From the NCBI GenBank assembly GCA_021443665.1, contig JABUTN010000004.1:92337-127858 (forward strand): a DNA stretch of 35,522 nucleotides. The letters are read 5' to 3'. The notes below the pieces were generated by a model that saw only the letters and a list, made by a program, of their open reading frames with translations, was not told the origin of the DNA and searched no databases. Source of the DNA: Bacteroidales bacterium. GTDB lineage: Bacteria; Bacteroidota; Bacteroidia; Bacteroidales; UBA932. Shown here one piece after another: positions 2,048 through 26,964 of this stretch (position 1 is the stretch's first letter; each line of letters starts with the position of its first letter). The position numbers were made by a program, and so were the translations under genes.

Positions 2048-5000
2048 CTACAAGTCTTTTCCGTGACAATTCTTGAACTTCTTGCCCGAACCGCAGGGGC
2101 AGGGGTCGTTGCGTCCCACCTTCTTCTCCACGCGGATCGGCGCATTGCTCTTCGGCTCGCCCGAATTGGTCACCAGATCGGTGCGCGAAGTGCGCATCTG
2201 GCTCATATCGGCCCGCCTGCGCTCGGTCACCTGGGAGGGAGCGTGCTCCGCATCGTTGGCCCTCAGAGGGATATAGCAGCGGTAGAGGAAACTGAGCACA
2301 TCGCGTGTCACCTTCTCTATCACGCCCTGGAAGAGTTCGAAACTCTCGAACTTGTAAATCAATAGAGGATCCTTCTGCTCGTAGCTTGCGTTCTGGACTG
2401 ACTGCTTCAGTTCGTCCATCTCGCGCAGATGCTCCATCCAGTAGTGATCAATCTGGGCGAGGGTGATGGTCTTGCTCACGGCACGCACGAACTCTTTGCC
2501 GGAAGTTTCATAGGCCTTCTTGAGGTTGAACACCACACCCATAGGCGCGGGCTGTCCGTTCACCTGCCTGATGCCGTCCCAGATAGGGAACACAAGTCTC
2601 TCGCGGAATGCGCCCTGTGTTTCGTAGAGATGTTTCAGTATGGGCCAGGCCTGCTGGCGCAGAATCTCCCCGTGGCGCTCGAACTCCTCTTTGAGTTTGT
2701 TGCTCAGGGCATCGGCAATCTCGCTCTGACGCGCATTCCTGTACCACTTGGCATCAAAGGCGGGATCCACCGACAGGGTGGTCATTACCTCTGTGCGGAA
2801 CTCCTCGTAGCCGAGTCCCTTGGACTGCTCGCCGAGAGTCTCGCTGAAGTCGCACACCATATTATATACATCAATGTCAATCTTGTCTCCATAGAGGGCG
2901 TTGCGGCGCTTGTTGTAGATCACGTCACGCTGGGAGTTCATCACATCGTCATACTCGATCAGTCGCTTGCGGACTCCGAAGGCATTCTCCTCGACCTTGC
3001 GCTGTGCCTTCTCTATGCTATTGGAAAGCATCTTGTGCTGGAGGGACTCTCCCTCTTCCAGGCCCATACGGTCAACAAGGCCGGCAATGCGTTCCGAACC
3101 GAACTTGCGCATAAGGTCGTCCTCGAGGCTGATAAAGAAGATTGAGGAACCAGGGTCTCCCTGACGACCGGCACGACCGCGCAGCTGGCGGTCCACACGG
3201 CGGCTGTCGTGGCGTTCCGTGCCTATGATGGCCAGACCGCCCGCCTCCTTCACACCGGGGCCGAGTTTGATGTCGGTACCACGGCCCGCCATATTGGTGG
3301 CGATGGTCACCGTACCCGCCAGACCCGCATTGGCGACCACTTCCGCCTCGTGGGCGTGGTTCTTGGCATTAAGGACATTGTGCTTGATGCCGCGAATCTT
3401 GAGCATACGACTCAGCAGTTCTGAAATCTCAACCGATGTGGTACCCACAAGCACGGGGCGTCCCGCAGCCGTAAGTTCCACCACGAGATTTATGACGGCG
3501 TTGTATTTCTCTTTCTTTGTCTTGTAAATCAGGTCGTTCTGGTCGTCACGCAGCACGGGGCGGTTGGTCGGGATGACCACCACATCGAGTTTGTAGATCT
3601 GCCAGAACTCTCCCGCTTCCGTTTCGGCCGTACCCGTCATACCGGCGAGTTTGTGGTACATACGGAAATAGTTCTGCAGGGTGATGGTGGCAAAGGTCTG
3701 GGTTGCGGCCTCCACCTTCACGTTCTCCTTCGCCTCCACTGCCTGGTGCAGTCCGTCGCTCCAGCGGCGGCCCTCCATTATACGGCCCGTCTGTTCGTCC
3801 ACAATCTTCACCTTGCCGTCCATCAGCACATAGTCCACATCCCTTTCGAACATCGCGTAGGCCTTGAGCAACTGGGTGGTCGTATGCACCCTCTCGCTCT
3901 TGAGGGCGTAGTCGGTCAGAAGGGCATCCTTTTCCTTGGCAAGATTCTCAGGGTCGAGCTGTTTCTTTTCCAGTTCGGCTATCTCGCTGCCGATGTCGGG
4001 AAGCACGAAGAACTTGTCGTCACCGACCATTCCGGCCATGAAGTCGTTGCCCTTGTCCGTCATTTCCACACTGCGGGTAACCTCCTCTATCACGAAGTAG
4101 AGTTCGTCCGTGATAATGTGCATCTGCCTGTTGTTGTCCTGCATATAGAAGTTCTCCGTCTTCTGCAGCAGCTGCTTGATGCCCTGCTCGCTGAGGAACT
4201 TGATCAGAGGCTGGTACTTGGGCAGACCCTTGTGGGCTCTGAGCAGGGCCTTTCCGCCTTCAGTCTCGTCGCCTTCGGCAATCAGACGGCGGGCGTCGCT
4301 CAGGTATTTGATGACAAGCTGACGCTGGGCGGAATAAATCTTCTCTATATAGGGCTTGTACTGGTCGAACTGCTGGTCATCGCCTTTCGGCACGGGACCG
4401 GAGATGATCAGAGGGGTACGGGCATCGTCAATCAGCACGGAATCGACCTCATCGACTATGGCGTAGTGGTGCTTGCGCTGCACGAGGTCTTCGACACTGA
4501 CGGCCATATTGTCACGAAGATAGTCGAAACCGAACTCGTTGTTCGTACCGAAAGTGATGTCCGCCCTGTAGGCCTTCTTGCGGGCCTCGGTGCTGGGCTG
4601 GTGTTTGTCGATGCAGTCAACCCTCAGGCCGTGGAACATATACATGGGGCCCATCCACTCACTGTCTCGTTTGGAGAGGTAGTCGTTGACCGTCACCACG
4701 TGCACGCCCTTGCCGGCGAGGGCATTGAGGAAGACAGGAAGAGTCGCCACGAGGGTCTTACCCTCACCGGTGGCCATCTCCGCAATCTTGCCCTTGTGGA
4801 GCACGATGCCGCCTATGAGCTGCACATCGTAGTGCACCATGTCCCAGGTGGTGGGGTTGCCGCCCGCCATCCAGGTGTGTTTCCAAACGGCGGTGTCGCC
4901 CTCGATGTTCACGAAATCGTGCGAGGCGGCGAACTCGCGGTCCATCTCGGAGGCCTTGACACGGATTTCCTCGTTCTCCTTGAAACGGCGGGCCGTGGAC

Positions 5001-5353
5001 TTCATTATGGCGAAGGCCTCGGGCAGAATCTCATCGAGCACCGTCTCTATGGTCTCGTCTATGCGTTTGGTGAGTTTGTCAATCTCAGTGGCGATGGATT
5101 CCTTCTCGGATGCTTTGATTTCGGGGTCTTCCAACTGGGCCTTCAGGGCTGCGCTGCGCTCCTCATCCTCCCTGGTGCGGTCCCAAATCCGCTGCCTGAG
5201 TGCAGCCGAATGTTCACGCAACTGGTCATCGCTGAGGATGTCTATCTTCTCGTATTCCGCCAGCACTTTCTTGAGCACCGGCGTCACTTCCTTCATATCT
5301 TTTTCAGCCTTGGAGCCGAAAAAGAACTTCAACATATTTGTAAATGTTCCCAT
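2048..5353 (-). CDS. secA: Preprotein translocase ATPase SecA
   Basis: A 1101-residue motor that drives unfolded preproteins through SecYEG at the cytoplasmic membrane. Residues 196-200 are GEGKT (Walker A), 301-305 are DEVDS (Walker B/DEAD box), and the second helicase half carries [13 protein letters not shown] and the [13 protein letters not shown] arginine-finger region. The C-terminus ends in a zinc-binding SEC-C motif with Cys1085, Cys1087, Cys1096 and His1097, which in other bacteria contacts SecB or ribosomes. The protein is about 200 residues longer than E. coli SecA, as is usual in Bacteroidetes. Part of the extra length is an insertion after the DEVDS region (about residues 330-400) and part is a charged N-terminal helix (residues 50-105). 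A full TTTG-N20-TATCTTTG promoter lies 33 bases upstream of the ATG. lpdA and the bactofilin follow in the same run. Confidence 0.97.
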
Positions 5354-5386
5354 CTTTGTTTGCTCTTATAAATATATAGTAACTTG

Positions 5387-5418
5387 CAAAGATAAGACTT
5401 TTCCGTCAAAACGACAAA
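5387..5418 (-). promoter_or_regulatory. Bacteroidetes-type promoter of secA
   Basis: On the minus strand TTTG (5418-5415) is followed after exactly 20 bases by TATCTTTG (5394-5387). This fits the TTTG/TAnnTTTG consensus recognised by the Bacteroidetes primary sigma factor. Transcription would start a few bases past 5387 and leave a leader of about 30 bases before the secA ATG. The -33 element lies inside the last codons of dapF, so the two genes probably have separate promoters although no terminator is visible between them. Confidence 0.75.
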
Positions 5419-6230
5419 TTACAGCCTTCGAACTCCGTGGGGCCGGTCAGGACAATGCAGGTATAGGCAGCCCCCGGGCAGGCGGGAGCGCAGAAAGACA
5501 CGCTCAGAATGTCATTCACGGAGTGCAGATCATATTGAAGCCTTTCGGAACTTCGTTTCATCAGGGCGAGATGATGGGCGGCCAGGGCGCTTGCCACGAT
5601 GCCGGTGCCGCAGGCAAGGGTCTCCCCCTCTACCCCCTTCTCGAAGGTGCGCACCCATATCTGTCCGTCAATCACCTTTATGAAGTCCACATTGGTGCCC
5701 TTGGGGGCGAAACGGGGGTGGCGGCGCAGGGCCGGAGCCACGTCTTCAATATCCAGATCCTTCAGGGGCAGGTCATCGGGCATTACCACAACCAGATGCG
5801 GGCAGCCCGTATTCAGGGACACGGCGGCCGTTCCCCAGGGAGAGATGCCGGCACAGTCCTCGATGGAGGCGACATCACTCATAGAGATGCTCACGAGTTT
5901 GTGACGGGCATCCCTGTCAGCGCTGAGAATCTTCGCGTGATGGGGACCGTCGGGACCCATAAAGCTGAATTCCTTGTCACAAAGCCCCAGACGCTGGGCC
6001 AGATCGGCGAAACAGCGCCCTCCGTTGCCGCACATCAAGCCTTCCGAACTGCCGTCAGGATTGTAGAAGAGCATTCTGAAGCCCTCTTCCGGGGAGCCGC
6101 AGAGCACCATCAGCCCGTCCGTCCCGTGACGGGAGCAAAGTTCCACAATCTTCTCCACTTCCACAGGGGCATCCCCCTCGCGGAAAATCAGGAAGCGGTT
6201 GCCCGCACCATTGTACATGTATCCGGCCAT
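5406..6230 (-). CDS. dapF: Diaminopimelate epimerase
   Basis: A 274-residue cytosolic enzyme that converts LL- to meso-diaminopimelate for lysine and peptidoglycan synthesis. It acts without cofactor through two cysteines. These are Cys67 in LMCGNGGR, preceded by FYNPDGS, and Cys207 in ETLACGTG. The N-terminal MYNGAGNRF corresponds to the family's 'GTGNDF' substrate-binding stretch. I chose the ATG at 6230, which puts this motif at residues 5-13 as usual. A GTG nine codons upstream is possible but adds an atypical MFLLRDIRQ. A TATCTTTG box at 6266-6259 supports transcription beginning near 6252, which would exclude the GTG. The gene stands alone between a divergent efflux operon and secA, and no other dap gene is in view. 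Confidence 0.93.
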   Translation of the reverse strand: MAGYMYNGAGNRFLIFREGDAPVEVEKIVELCSRHGTDGLMVLCGSPEEGFRMLFYNPDGSSEGLMCGNGGRCFADLAQRLGLCDKEFSFMGPDGPHHAKILSADRDARHKLVSISMSDVASIEDCAGISPWGTAAVSLNTGCPHLVVVMPDDLPLKDLDIEDVAPALRRHPRFAPKGTNVDFIKVIDGQIWVRTFEKGVEGETLACGTGIVASALAAHHLALMKRSSERLQYDLHSVNDILSVSFCAPACPGAAYTCIVLTGPTEFEGCNLSF

Positions 6231-6258
6231 CTGTCGTATATCTCTGAGCAAGAACACA

Positions 6259-6266
6259 CAAAGATA
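6259..6266 (-). promoter_or_regulatory. Promoter -7 box of dapF
   Basis: The minus strand reads TATCTTTG, matching TAnnTTTG, 28 bases upstream of the chosen dapF ATG. No good TTTG is found 19-21 bases further upstream, so this is a half match. It lies back to back with the box of the divergent efflux operon at 6280-6287, so the two promoters share about 20 bases. Confidence 0.5.
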
Positions 6267-6279
6267 TAATAAATATGTT

Positions 6280-6287
6280 TATATTTG
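6280..6287 (+). promoter_or_regulatory. Promoter -7 box of the RND efflux operon
   Basis: TATATTTG matches the Bacteroidetes -7 consensus and is followed by a leader of roughly 45 bases that is very A-rich just before the ATG at 6337. No clear TTTG is seen at the -33 position, so an activator may be needed or the promoter may be weak. I see no palindromic operator in the 106 bases between the divergent ATGs. Confidence 0.5.
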
Positions 6288-6336
6288 CAGTTTGAACTCT
6301 TTTGAAACAAAGAAATAAAAACACAATAGTAAAATT

Positions 6337-7452
6337 ATGAAACTGACACGACTGAGTCTGTACCTTGTTGCAGCAGCCGCCATTGCCTCCTCCTGTGGCA
6401 ATGAGGAACCCGCGAAAATCGAAATCAACTACCCTGTGATGACCATCAAGGACACGACAGTGGTGATTCCCACCACCATCAATGCCACCCTTACCGGCCG
6501 TCAGGATATTGCCATCATCCCCCAGGTGAGCGGATTCCTTGAGGAGTTGTGCGTAAAGGAAGGAGAAAAGGTCAAGAAAGGCCAACTCCTCTTCGTCCTT
6601 GACCAAACCAAACTGAAGGCAGCCCTCGATGTGGCATATTCAAATGTGGAGGCAGCCAAGGCGTCCGTGGCCACCGAAGAGCTGAACGTGAAATCCAGAA
6701 AGCAGCTTTTCGAGGAGGACATCATCTCCGAATACGAGCTCAAGATGGCCGAGAACAAACTCCTGGCAGCCAAGGCAAGCCTTGAGCAGGCATACGCCCA
6801 GGTGACCACAGCCAAGACCGACCTTTCATTCTCAGAGCTCAGGGCACCCAGCGACGGAGTCGTGGGTTCAATCACCTACCGCCAGGGCGCACTGGTAAGC
6901 CCTTCCATCGAGAAACCTATGACCTATGTGTCAGACAACTCGCAGATGTACGCCTATTTCGCTATGACTGAGGCAAAACTGCTCAGTTTCTACGAAATGT
7001 TCGGAACAGACAACGACCATCTCATCAGCCTCCTCCCCCCCATCGAACTGCTGATGGCCAACGGCAAGAAATACGAGCTCCAGGGCAAGGTGGAGAGCAT
7101 CTCCGGTGTCATCGACCCCCTTACCGGCACCACCAGTGTCCGTTCAGTGTTCGACAACCCCGACAGAATCCTGCGCAGTGGCGGCGCCTGCCGCGTGCAG
7201 TTGCCCGTGACCTACGACAACGCCGTGGTCATTCCCCTCTCAGCCACCTACGACATCCAGAACAAGCACTTTGTATATACCATCGTTGACGGCAAGGCCA
7301 AGGCCCGCGAGGTGACCATCGAGAACCTCGGAGACGGCAGAAACTGCGTGGTGCACAGCGGTCTCAAAGCCGGTGAGCGCATTGTTTCCGACGGAGCCGG
7401 CCTGGTGAAGGAAGGCGAGCAGATCGACCAAGTTTCAATAGACCTCAACTAA
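6337..7452 (+). CDS. RND efflux periplasmic adaptor (AcrA/MexA type, lipoprotein)
   Basis: A 371-residue membrane-fusion protein linking an RND pump to an outer-membrane channel. The N-terminus has a signal peptide ending in an ASSC lipobox (Cys20), so it should be lipid-anchored. After this come the first half of the lipoyl/barrel-sandwich domain (VSGFLEELCVKEGEKVKKGQ), an alpha-helical hairpin (about residues 90-155, heptad-like with many A, K, E and L), the second lipoyl half (RAPSDGVVGSITYRQGALVS), a beta-barrel and a membrane-proximal domain. The length fits the family (370-400). It begins a three-gene operon, with the pump 12 bases downstream and the channel after that. The substrate cannot be read from the sequence. 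No regulator gene adjoins. Confidence 0.93.
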   Translation: MKLTRLSLYLVAAAAIASSCGNEEPAKIEINYPVMTIKDTTVVIPTTINATLTGRQDIAIIPQVSGFLEELCVKEGEKVKKGQLLFVLDQTKLKAALDVAYSNVEAAKASVATEELNVKSRKQLFEEDIISEYELKMAENKLLAAKASLEQAYAQVTTAKTDLSFSELRAPSDGVVGSITYRQGALVSPSIEKPMTYVSDNSQMYAYFAMTEAKLLSFYEMFGTDNDHLISLLPPIELLMANGKKYELQGKVESISGVIDPLTGTTSVRSVFDNPDRILRSGGACRVQLPVTYDNAVVIPLSATYDIQNKHFVYTIVDGKAKAREVTIENLGDGRNCVVHSGLKAGERIVSDGAGLVKEGEQIDQVSIDLN

Positions 7453-24894: not shown

Positions 24895-25035
24895 TTACCA
24901 ATCCACTTCCTCAATATCCTGAAGCCTGCCGCTTTTGGCAAACACTCCTTCACTTTGAATTTCGAATGTCACGAGAGCGGGTTTCTCATAACTCTCCTTT
25001 TGGGCATAGCCGGTAACTTTTTCCAAATTCTCCAT
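24895..25035 (-). CDS. Orphan 46-residue peptide with YxxP...SG pattern
   Basis: An open frame from ATG at 25035 to TAA at 24895. The peptide starts MENLEKVTGYAQKESYEKPA, continues LVTFEIQSEGVFAKSG and ends GRLQDIEEVDW. It is acidic, has no signal peptide, membrane segment or cysteine, and ends in Asp-Trp. A central Y-x-x-P, an alternating hydrophobic strand, an E-x-x-x-(F/L)-A-x-SG turn and an acidic or aromatic tail resemble short peptides that I know recur, poorly annotated, in many Bacteroidales genomes. Their function is not established. A full promoter match lies 27 bases upstream, which supports it as a real gene. It lies directly downstream of an O-methyltransferase gene (63-base gap) on the same strand. 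A small regulatory or modified peptide is possible but unproven. Confidence 0.7.
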   Translation of the reverse strand: MENLEKVTGYAQKESYEKPALVTFEIQSEGVFAKSGRLQDIEEVDW

Positions 25036-25062: not shown

Positions 25063-25094
25063 CAAAGTTAGGAACTTTCCCCAAACAATACAAA
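25063..25094 (-). promoter_or_regulatory. Promoter of the 46-residue peptide gene
   Basis: Minus-strand TTTG (25094-25091), 20-base spacer, TAACTTTG (25070-25063): a full match to the TTTG/TAnnTTTG consensus. The -33 TTTG is the end of a run of seven T that begins right after the O-methyltransferase stop codon. The leader to the ATG would be about 23 bases. Confidence 0.72.
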
Positions 25095-25098
25095 AAAA

Positions 25099-25746
25099 TC
25101 ACACCCTTCGGGCCACATACAGGCCGTCGCGGATGGGGAGGATGGTGGAACGGAAGCGCGGGTCTGCGGCGAGGGCGGAGTTGAAGGCCACAATCGCTTC
25201 CGTCTGCCTGTCGTGGGGACGGTCCTCGCGGGCAGCGAGCCCGTTCCAGAGCACATTGTCGGCGAGCAGCCAGCCACCCGGCCTTACCTTGGACGCGAAG
25301 GCCTCCAGATAGGCGGGATACTCCCTCTTGTTCGCATCTATATAGACGATGTCGTAAGAGTCCATCAGAGGGGCGGCATCAAGGGCATCCTGCAGGTGGG
25401 CGCGGATTGTCCCCGGGTCTGAAGGGCCCGTGAACGCGGCAGGGTTCACCTGGAAGCCCGCCATCTCGAAAGCCTCCAGATAGAGGTCCCTCAACTCGTC
25501 ATTGACCTCGAAAGTGTCAATCACGCAGTCCTGTTCACGGCCGACAAAGCCCCTTGCGAGGCATAGGGTGGCGTATCCGCTGAATGTCCCGATTTCAAGC
25601 ACGCGGGTAGGCCGGGCCATAAGGGAAAGGGTCTGGAGGAACTCCCCCTGCACACCGTCCGAAAGCATACGGTAGGATTTTGTGCGCAGGAAAGTCTGCC
25701 TGCGAACCCACTCAAGCGCCTTGAAATATGCCTCGGGACTGCTCAT
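25099..25746 (-). CDS. Class I SAM-dependent O-methyltransferase (CCoAOMT-like)
   Basis: A 215-residue enzyme of the caffeoyl-CoA/catechol O-methyltransferase family. SAM-binding motif I is VLEIGTFSGYATLCLARG (about residues 49-66), and the Asp of the metal/substrate site is in YDIVYIDANKREY (about 131-143). The WLLADNVLWNG strand matches the family's divalent-metal-binding 'DNVL..G'. Bacterial members methylate small catechol-like hydroxyl groups, though natural substrates are mostly unknown. The length is typical (about 210-220). It is the last gene of the long engB-to-here run, 6 bases after the M16 peptidase. The next gene on the strand is the 46-residue peptide with its own promoter. Confidence 0.9.
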   Translation of the reverse strand: MSSPEAYFKALEWVRRQTFLRTKSYRMLSDGVQGEFLQTLSLMARPTRVLEIGTFSGYATLCLARGFVGREQDCVIDTFEVNDELRDLYLEAFEMAGFQVNPAAFTGPSDPGTIRAHLQDALDAAPLMDSYDIVYIDANKREYPAYLEAFASKVRPGGWLLADNVLWNGLAAREDRPHDRQTEAIVAFNSALAADPRFRSTILPIRDGLYVARRV

Positions 25747-25752
25747 AAAAGA

Positions 25753-26964
25753 CTATTTATAAACCAAAGTACTGAGACGCGAGGGTCTGAAAACATCTTC
25801 CGCCACCTCCTTTATCTGCCGAGCCGTGACAGCATTTATCAGGGCCACCACCTCGGCATTGGGAATCACACGGCCAAATGACAGGAGGCTCTTGCCCATA
25901 GACAGCACCTGTGCTTCCCCATTGTCCTCGGAAATGGCCATTTGCCCGAGCAACTGTTTTTTCGAGGCGGCAAGGACACGTTCGCTGAGGGTCTCGTCCC
26001 TCAGTTTCGCCAGAGTCTTGTGCACCAAGGATATGCAGCGCTGCAGGTTGGCCTTGTCGCAGCCGAAATAGATGGCCACGCAGCCAGTGTCGCAAAACTG
26101 CGTGAAGGAGGACTCCACCCCATAGACCAGGGCATTGCGCTCCCGCAGGAGGGTGTTGAGCATACTGTTGGCCGCAGGTCCTCCGAGAAGGTTGGAAAGA
26201 AGAAAAAGCGCCACCCTTTTGGGATTGTTGTAACTGTAGGCGGTCGCCCCTATGATGCAATGCGCCTGGTGGCTCTTCCTGTTGCTCGTCTTTTCAAAGA
26301 CATTGCCGTCCCCGATATCCAGCATTTTCCGGACGGGACATTGCGGGGCGGGACTGACACGCACGGCGCTCCATTTGGCTAGGTTGCGCTCCACCATAGA
26401 ACGCAACTTCCGCTCATCGATGTTCGCAACGGCCGTGAACACCATATTCTCAGGCACAAAACGGCTGTGATAGTAATCCAGGAGAGTCTCCCTATTTATG
26501 CGCTTGAGCGATATCGCCTTCCCGAGCACCGGAGTGCTTAGCGGTGTGCCCTCATAGAGGTATTCCTCAAAATCGTCGAAAATCTGCTCTGCGGGGGAAT
26601 CCTTGTAGGAACTTATTTCTTCCAGAATCACTCCCCTCTCCTTGTCGATTTCCTTCTGGGGAAACACCGAATCGAAGGCAAGCTCAAAAAGCAGGGAAAC
26701 GGCTTTCGGAAGGTCTCCGCACAGGACTGTGGCGTGGATAACGGTCTCCTCCTTCGTGGTGTAGGCATTCAGGTCGCCGCCAAGCCTCTCTATGCGCGAG
26801 TTGATGGATGAGGCGCTCCGGCGGGTGGTACCTTTGAAAAGCAGGTGTTCGGTGAAATGAGCAAGCCCCCCCGGCAAGTCACCTTCGTCACGGGTGCCGG
26901 TTCTGATGCTCAAAGCGCAATATGCCACATCGGAAGTGGTCTTATGTAAGGCGAAGCCGATCAT
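25753..26964 (-). CDS. M16 family zinc peptidase (single-lobed, processing-peptidase-like)
   Basis: A 403-residue cytosolic-type metallopeptidase with no signal peptide. The inverted zinc motif HFTEH is at residues 36-40 and the third ligand, Glu116, is in VILEE exactly 76 residues beyond His40, so the site is intact. The second half (residues about 190-400) carries the family's LLGGPAANSMLNTLLRERNALVYGVESSF substrate-binding stretch. It resembles mitochondrial processing peptidase beta and bacterial PqqL/YmxG-like enzymes. The N-terminus is a little short of the usual 'LxNGLxV' strand. It sits 6 bases after the secreted unknown protein, in the same frame, with TGA-CGG-CAG between them. Confidence 0.92.
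   Translation of the reverse strand: MIGFALHKTTSDVAYCALSIRTGTRDEGDLPGGLAHFTEHLLFKGTTRRSASSINSRIERLGGDLNAYTTKEETVIHATVLCGDLPKAVSLLFELAFDSVFPQKEIDKERGVILEEISSYKDSPAEQIFDDFEEYLYEGTPLSTPVLGKAISLKRINRETLLDYYHSRFVPENMVFTAVANIDERKLRSMVERNLAKWSAVRVSPAPQCPVRKMLDIGDGNVFEKTSNRKSHQAHCIIGATAYSYNNPKRVALFLLSNLLGGPAANSMLNTLLRERNALVYGVESSFTQFCDTGCVAIYFGCDKANLQRCISLVHKTLAKLRDETLSERVLAASKKQLLGQMAISEDNGEAQVLSMGKSLLSFGRVIPNAEVVALINAVTARQIKEVAEDVFRPSRLSTLVYK

Follow-up and report, generated by a model that had tools for sequence, protein, structure and literature searches.

A small coding gene behind a Bacteroidetes-type promoter

The window analysed here is a stretch of 35,522 nucleotides from a Bacteroidales bacterium (UBA932; GenBank assembly GCA_021443665.1, contig JABUTN010000004.1, positions 92,337 to 127,858). 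It carries on its minus strand a 46-codon ORF, which begins with an ATG at 25035, ends with a TAA stop codon at 24895-24897 and, by direct reading, encodes the peptide MENLEKVTGYAQKESYEKPALVTFEIQSEGVFAKSGRLQDIEEVDW. In the ORF listing, this small gene is 10 residues longer upstream and starts with TTG. The features of the locus are listed below, with the evidence for each in brackets.

24895 to 25035 (stop codon included), minus strand: small gene, candidate 46-aa RRE-type precursor peptide (sequence, paralogue, family profile match with E=3e-15)
24928 to 24990, minus strand: conserved leader block YEKPALVTFEIQSEGVFAKSG, residues 16-36 (column statistics, comparison with LPP and lasso leaders)
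24898 to 24927, minus strand: variable acidic tail RLQDIEEVDW, residues 37-46, proposed core or product region (tail statistics of family members)
25063 to 25094, minus strand: match to the Bacteroidetes-type promoter TTTG-N20-TAACTTTG (pattern count, sequence)
25099 to 25746, minus strand: putative O-methyltransferase gene, so named in the initial annotation, upstream neighbour, not part of the system (homologous loci, see below)
25753 to 26964, minus strand: putative M16 peptidase gene, likewise named there, neighbour, not part of the system (ORF listing, neighbourhood)

The initial annotation had described a short acidic peptide with YEKP, VFAKSG and EEVDW segments, preceded at 27 bases by a full promoter. 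The segments are read directly in the sequence, and the promoter is present as a pattern, the last G of TTTG-N20-TAACTTTG being separated from the ATG by 27 bases. We regard it as a candidate promoter by sequence, because the pattern exceeds chance in the window, with five matches to TTTG-N19-21-TAnnTTTG against 0.13 expected from shuffles. The other four full matches lie at positions 5387, 12223, 23218 and 34836. Among the 138 members of the peptide family described below that have enough upstream sequence, 55 have TAnnTTTG within the 120 bp upstream, where mononucleotide shuffles gave 8.7, and nine have the full pattern with spacers of 17-21, against 0.12 in shuffles.

An Rfam search of the window gave no match, and a reading as an RNA element was therefore dropped; no tRNA was found anywhere in the window either. 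Comparison of the window gene with a paralogue in its own genome gave a dN of 0.18 and a dS of 1.99 over 27 aligned codons, the dS being close to saturation. The dN/dS ratio was also below 1 in 13 of 14 other close member pairs with dS>0, which are not all independent; the exception (1.2) involved tiny values, and two more pairs had dS=0. Judged from these substitution patterns, the ORF is a real, conserved coding gene apparently under selection at the protein level.

The peptide belongs to an unannotated family of Bacteroidales

The gene had initially been taken for an orphan. This does not hold, as a paralogue with 58% identity is present on contig C30 of the same genome, and a profile of 12 members (A1, threshold E<=0.05) found matches in 72 of the 199 genomes searched in the same family-level taxon. 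Up to 26 matches were found per genome, of which the weakest are perhaps chance; the peptide-rich genomes are G221 with 26 matches, G308 with 19, and G153 and G223 with 17 each. A third match in the window's own genome is weak (E=0.13, within a 426-aa frame) and was left unused. With a broader profile (A2, E<=0.01), 13 of 247 genomes of the order were positive. In a phylum-wide sample of 198 genomes searched with A2, the own genome was the sole match (0 of 197 others). The initial annotation had proposed a profile search for homologues sharing the pattern, and their recovery removes the possibility it had allowed for, that none exist.

Neither Pfam nor NCBIfam has a family over its cut-off for the window peptide or the A1 members. 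The best Pfam match of the window peptide is DUF5972 (PF19397), with 13.9 bits against a gathering cut-off of 22.6, and the A1 members gave chance-level matches at best. This bears out the earlier remark that peptides of the YxxP...SG pattern are scattered in Bacteroidales and poorly annotated. The 22 named relatives with a family peptide are all MAG contigs, 21 of them titled Bacteroidales, Bacteroidia or similar. A ruminant is named in 10 of the 22 record titles, and eight more are RUG isolates, which we take to be from the rumen. The remaining contig (L182, JAFPWF010000030.1) has Oscillospiraceae in its title, and its peptide has the same sequence as one found in a Bacteroidales MAG, by misbinning or transfer; it is probably a misbinned contig. 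As far as sequence can tell, the family is thus an unannotated one of rumen and other Bacteroidales.

Members share a conserved leader and differ in their tail

Alignment of 139 distinct members (profile E<=1e-3) showed a shared motif, Y-x-x-P...E-G-[VI]-[IL]-[CA]-x-S-G, followed by a variable acidic, aromatic tail; the fuller leader consensus reads YxxPx[IT]E[VI]xE...EG[VI][IL][CA]xSG. Y-x-x-P is found in 136 of the 139, a count that is partly circular because the profile was built on YxxP sequences, and the other three resemble wrongly chosen starts. Counting the Tyr as index 0, the 136 members have Glu at index 13 (109), Gly at index 14 (93), Cys or Ala at index 17 (131) and Ser at index 19 (128). 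In 135 of the 136 the tail carries a net negative charge, and in 127 an aromatic residue lies within its last eight positions. The window peptide agrees with the family at each counted motif and tail position, and its tail is similar to the paralogue's (QDIEEVDW against EDFPVEDW).

We propose that the YxxP motif binds an RRE, and that the A-x-S-G end of the leader block may be a region of cleavage and/or of a phospho-Ser. GVIC was also considered as a lipoprotein signal and rejected: 35 of 136 members carry Ala in place of the Cys, ahead of which no signal peptide is evident.

The family tracks an operon for an RRE, a kinase, a peptidase and an exporter

The YxxP leader led us to search for an RRE (PqqD, PF05402). 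PqqD of any kind was found in 94 of the 199 genomes of the family-level taxon, with 64 of the 72 peptide-positive genomes against 30 of the 127 negative ones (Fisher 5e-20). An HprK-like kinase, found in 82 of 199 genomes, proved a more specific marker than PqqD of any kind (62 of 72 against 20 of 127, Fisher 5e-23). Both p-values are overstated because the genomes are related, and the table by genus is fairer: 12 genera have both peptide and kinase, two the peptide only, none the kinase only and 11 neither (p=2e-5). By this search the kinase is missing from ten of the 72 peptide-positive genomes, two of which (G022, G050) are 99% complete; eight of the 72 lack any PqqD. At the level of the order, PqqD is present in 156 of 247 genomes and is common enough that its co-occurrence with the peptide (12 of 13 peptide-positive genomes, 144 of 234 others, p=0.035) is only weakly informative. 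A C39 peptidase/exporter was also tried as the processing enzyme and set aside, being too common (155 of 199 genomes) to mark the peptide-bearing ones.

Among the matches listed (150 places for the peptide and 112 for PqqD), a peptide and a PqqD gene are no more than 10 kb apart in 10 pairs, against 1.7 expected from uniform placement. In the DNA around 20 such RREs, HprK-like and signal-peptidase-like genes were present within a few kilobases in 16. Kinase, peptidase and RRE also occur together in eight of 11 RRE regions from other families and genera of the order. The full operon set comprises genes for an HprK-like protein of about 300 aa, a signal-peptidase-like protein of about 150 aa, an 88-aa RRE, an MsbA-like ABC exporter and sometimes NTP_transf_5, the last being found at L233, L236, L260 and L245. 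In the window's own genome, kinase, peptidase, RRE and exporter genes are contiguous at G000:C12:2735-7403, on a different contig from the window, and NTP_transf_5 is absent from the inspected region of this operon. At positions 4371-7403 of the same contig (locus L228), the ABC exporter and a PurD form one open frame of 1010 aa, by fusion or as an assembly effect.

In the genomes listed, the peptides lie mostly far from the operon. They are found within about 3 kb of an operon gene at L229, L230, L231, L232, L235, L252 and L253, and at three loci from two family-level taxa the peptide, a lipoprotein and all five enzymes are contiguous:

L233 (G024), on one strand: RRE, NTP transferase, ABC exporter (by eye), HprK-like kinase, S26 peptidase, peptide, lipoprotein
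L236 (G007), peptide inside the operon: RRE, NTP transferase, ABC exporter, peptide, lipoprotein, HprK-like kinase, S26 peptidase
L260 (G425, another family-level taxon): peptide, lipoprotein, HprK-like kinase, S26 peptidase, RRE, NTP transferase, ABC exporter

At two of the ten peptide/PqqD loci, a radical SAM gene adjoins the RRE. L234 (G226:C218, 2775-5680) is a radical-SAM variant of the same system, in which what looks like a single operon runs from a radical SAM gene and a peptide to RRE, S26 (signal-peptidase-like) and HprK-like genes; its peptide is a weak member (E=0.0016) with YEKP...AASG and then a Cys-bearing tail. At L237 (G229:C4, 6989-8935), a Cys-rich family peptide (YESP...EGIVCQSG) is followed by a radical SAM gene (PF04055) and an RRE, with no kinase or peptidase nearby. 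A shared type of leader before a different core is as expected of a RiPP leader.

We then considered the enzymes themselves. The RRE of the own genome matches PF05402 with E=1.4e-15. TfuB1 (6jx3), a lasso RRE with a solved structure, is matched by the RRE profile with E=7e-7 and by the own RRE alone with E=0.13; the LppB structure, whose entry is possibly absent from the database searched, was not among the matches of either. All nine kinases carry G[KR]SGTGKST, which marks them as putative HprK-like kinases. The predicted fold is of the PEPCK/HprK type, as PEPCK structures are the first and HprK the next matches of the AlphaFold model (pLDDT 87.6), with TM up to 0.54 by query length. In the 10 peptidases, a Ser (G-x-S-M-x-P), a His (V-[LI]-H-R) and GDGN, including its Asp, are invariant, as candidates for the Ser/His/Asp set of a putative signal-peptidase-like leader peptidase; the match to the archaeal-type signal peptidase I TIGR02228 (E=1e-8) is below the curated cut-off. 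The exporter matches TIGR02203 with E=1.8e-67 in the own genome and 8.6e-74 at L231, both below the curated equivalog cut-off, and the NCBIfam matches of kinase and peptidase in these two are likewise below curated cut-offs. HPr-rel-A/SynChlorMet cassettes also combine an HprK-related kinase with a PqqD-like protein. The present genes differ from them (TIGR04352, HprK_rel_A; TIGR04248-04251) in that their scores fall well short of the curated thresholds, HPr-rel-A for instance giving 21.5 bits where 200 are required.

Most members precede the gene of a surface lipoprotein

We evaluated the ORFs that follow 114 distinct members, each having 400 bases or more of downstream sequence, leaving out duplicates, frames of more than 260 aa and unclosed frames; the window is not among these loci. 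Within 300 bp and on the same strand, 97 are followed by an ORF with a lipobox signal, called by a simple in-house rule, eight by one with a looser signal, and nine by neither. As a control, which includes non-gene frames, we applied the rule to 570 long open frames of these loci, and 64 satisfied it. In an earlier set of 92 members that included the window, 89 had room downstream, with 75 lipobox ORFs, 10 looser ones (including a spurious antisense frame at the window) and four without; the median gap between peptide and lipoprotein was +12 bp. Several loci carry tandem peptide-lipoprotein pairs, 2-3 kb apart.

In a Pfam scan of 14 partner lipoproteins, two were over the cut-off for the fimbrillin family Mfa_like_1 (PF13149) and one for the BspA-type LRR_5. 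The C-termini of the partners appear to vary, given the diversity of the weaker matches (Lcl_C, Hint, BT_3987-like_N, Glug). One partner (L057, G002:C50, 8618-10054) has a C-terminus with a weak Hint/intein-like match, and another (L103, G051:C6, after about 1520) one that is tyrosine phosphatase-like by eye. The paralogue in the own genome has a lipoprotein partner of 477 aa, whose structure model has a mean pLDDT of 37; as this gave no usable model, the label fimbrillin-like rests on the Pfam matches of two other partners. The window copy is among the few members that have no downstream lipoprotein: 28 bp past its stop lies the end (24866) of a convergent ORF, transporter-like by eye. At L264 (G440:C10, from about 4448), peptide ORF and lipoprotein form one open frame with no stop between them.

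This arrangement bears on two alternatives. The ORF could be a leader peptide that acts in cis on the following lipoprotein gene, as an attenuator or a translational coupler, and the window copy a stranded relic. The 97 of 114 members placed within 300 bp of a lipobox ORF, and the single frame in G440, would suit this, yet conservation is at the protein level, some members have no lipoprotein (the window copy, and the nine of 114 without a signal-bearing ORF), leaders of the same type adjoin radical SAM genes, and the occurrence of the family follows that of RRE/HprK genes; we therefore consider it unlikely. We also find it improbable that the peptide is an unmodified small protein, a chaperone or subunit acting directly with surface lipoproteins, to which the link with the RRE operon would be secondary. 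No signal peptide is apparent in it, and such a role leaves YxxP, the peptidase and kinase of the operon and the radical SAM contexts unexplained, even though lipoprotein linkage is the commonest context of the family and two partners are over the cut-off for Mfa_like_1.

The operon resembles LPP and differs from lasso clusters

The system of the linear polyphosphorylated peptides (LPP; lppAKBSDN) of Bacillota, reported in 2026, comprises, according to the available passages of PMC13381572, an SpI, a discrete RRE, an HprK-like kinase, an NTP transferase and an MsbA-like transporter. Its precursors are short, with a leader YxxPxVLxHQxIxFETxxS and a variable C-terminus. As described there, core Ser3 was multiply phosphorylated on heterologous expression and the SpI-like peptidase cleaved in an RRE-dependent manner in assays, the final product not being identified (PMC13381572). 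LPP is called restricted to Bacillota in the discussion of that paper, and its homologue network 'predominantly' Bacillota; a text search of the available passages for 'Bacteroid' found nothing (PMC13381572).

As far as those passages describe LPP, the Bacteroidales operon has the same discrete RRE, archaeal-type SpI-like peptidase, HprK-like kinase, MsbA-like exporter and, at some loci, NTP transferase, and the same short precursors with a YxxP leader, a variable C-terminus and a conserved Ser near the boundary of leader and core. The leader consensus, however, is unmatched beyond YxxP, one hydrophobic position and the Ser at a similar distance. Unlike those of LPP, the Bacteroidales precursors occur in large numbers, lie scattered and in most cases are paired with a surface lipoprotein; moreover, the NTP transferase is missing beside the operon of the window's genome, and phosphorylation here is putative. 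A paired Asn and Asp in the RRE were set by eye against the Tyr-selecting residues of LppB, and we make no claim from them. Because the five enzymes are the same and the leader consensus differs, we call the operon LPP-like and not a member of LPP.

Lasso clusters of the paeninodin and fusilassin types, with a B1 RRE, share the YxxPx(hydrophobic) leader and the RRE family, and some have HprK and NTP transferase genes, which are known to accompany lasso clusters from the available passages of PMC7533575 and PMC13381572. A lasso-peptide precursor, for which the YxxPx[L/I/V] leader, the TfuB1-like RRE and these accompanying genes would speak, is nevertheless very unlikely: the B2 peptidase PF13471 is over the cut-off in none of the 12 operon-bearing genomes (three weak matches lie below it), and no cyclase was recognised in the ORF listings of the inspected operons.

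In the literature covered, which included passages of PMC10352776, PMC12710340 and PMC7533575 and left most subscription journals and non-PMC preprints outside its scope, we found no account of the family or of its lipoprotein link, nor a small-peptide partner of Mfa/fimbrillin-like lipoproteins.

The neighbouring O-methyltransferase and M16 genes are incidental

The initial annotation had named the O-methyltransferase and M16 peptidase genes as plausible partners and had asked whether the position of the peptide beside them is kept. The O-methyltransferase was found in 54 of 59 relatives. At 30 of its loci, taken with flanks of about 1.5 kb or as far as the contig extends, a convincing peptide match was present at one, the window's own, and the position is not conserved at the other 29. 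Three more matches at such loci (E 0.3-0.7) were short or unlike the family. In G223:C13, a peptide/lipoprotein pair lies beside O-methyltransferase- and M16-like genes; as it is on the other side and divergent, we read this as coincidence. The neighbourhood is incidental, and a partnership of the peptide with the two genes, which would have in its favour that they adjoin it in the window and that G223 has a similar, divergent layout, can be set aside as extremely improbable with one locus of 30.

A proposed pathway and its meaning

The window gene most likely encodes the precursor peptide of an RRE-dependent RiPP-type pathway resembling LPP. The linkage of its family to RRE/kinase/peptidase/exporter operons also supports the initial suggestion of a modified peptide. 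By its membership of the family, the window copy would depend on the operon of contig C12. In this pathway, the leader Y-x-x-P-x-[hydrophobic] would pair, in beta-strand form, with the 88-aa PqqD/RRE protein of that contig. The HprK-like kinase would phosphorylate the bound precursor, most simply at the near-invariant Ser of [CA]-x-S-G. We take the Ser at index 19 as the simplest acceptor because the published LPP leader has its Ser at index 18, a single position away.

The signal-peptidase-like Ser/His protein may then remove the leader near [CA]-x-S-G. Signal peptidases prefer small residues at alternating positions, and we place the cut here because small residues alternate there. A cut after index 17 would leave the Ser in the product, and one after index 19 would fit small residues at -3 and -1 equally well. 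The MsbA-like ABC exporter would send the acidic, aromatic tail out of the cell, where the surface lipoprotein encoded with most relatives, fimbrillin-like in some, is its likely surface partner. The window copy would have lost, or never had, a lipoprotein gene; it would be matured in trans, and possibly also received in trans, a possibility we raise because its tail resembles that of the paralogue, which has a lipoprotein.

On a broader scale, we see an even balance for and against the idea that Bacteroidales possess an LPP-like peptide factory of their own, in which a single central RRE/kinase/peptidase/exporter operon acts in trans on as many as roughly two dozen scattered precursors per genome, most with a private surface lipoprotein. 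Such an arrangement would amount to a surface peptide-lipoprotein code of phosphorylated RiPPs, with the window gene as a free-standing member. Scattered precursors that rely on one maturation operon would escape cluster-based genome mining. The proposed pathway would give a testable function to a large unannotated family of small proteins of rumen and other Bacteroidales. It would also extend an LPP-like pathway beyond Bacillota, its stated limit according to the passages available, and may connect the maturation of RiPPs with lipoproteins of the surface, of which some are fimbrillin-like.
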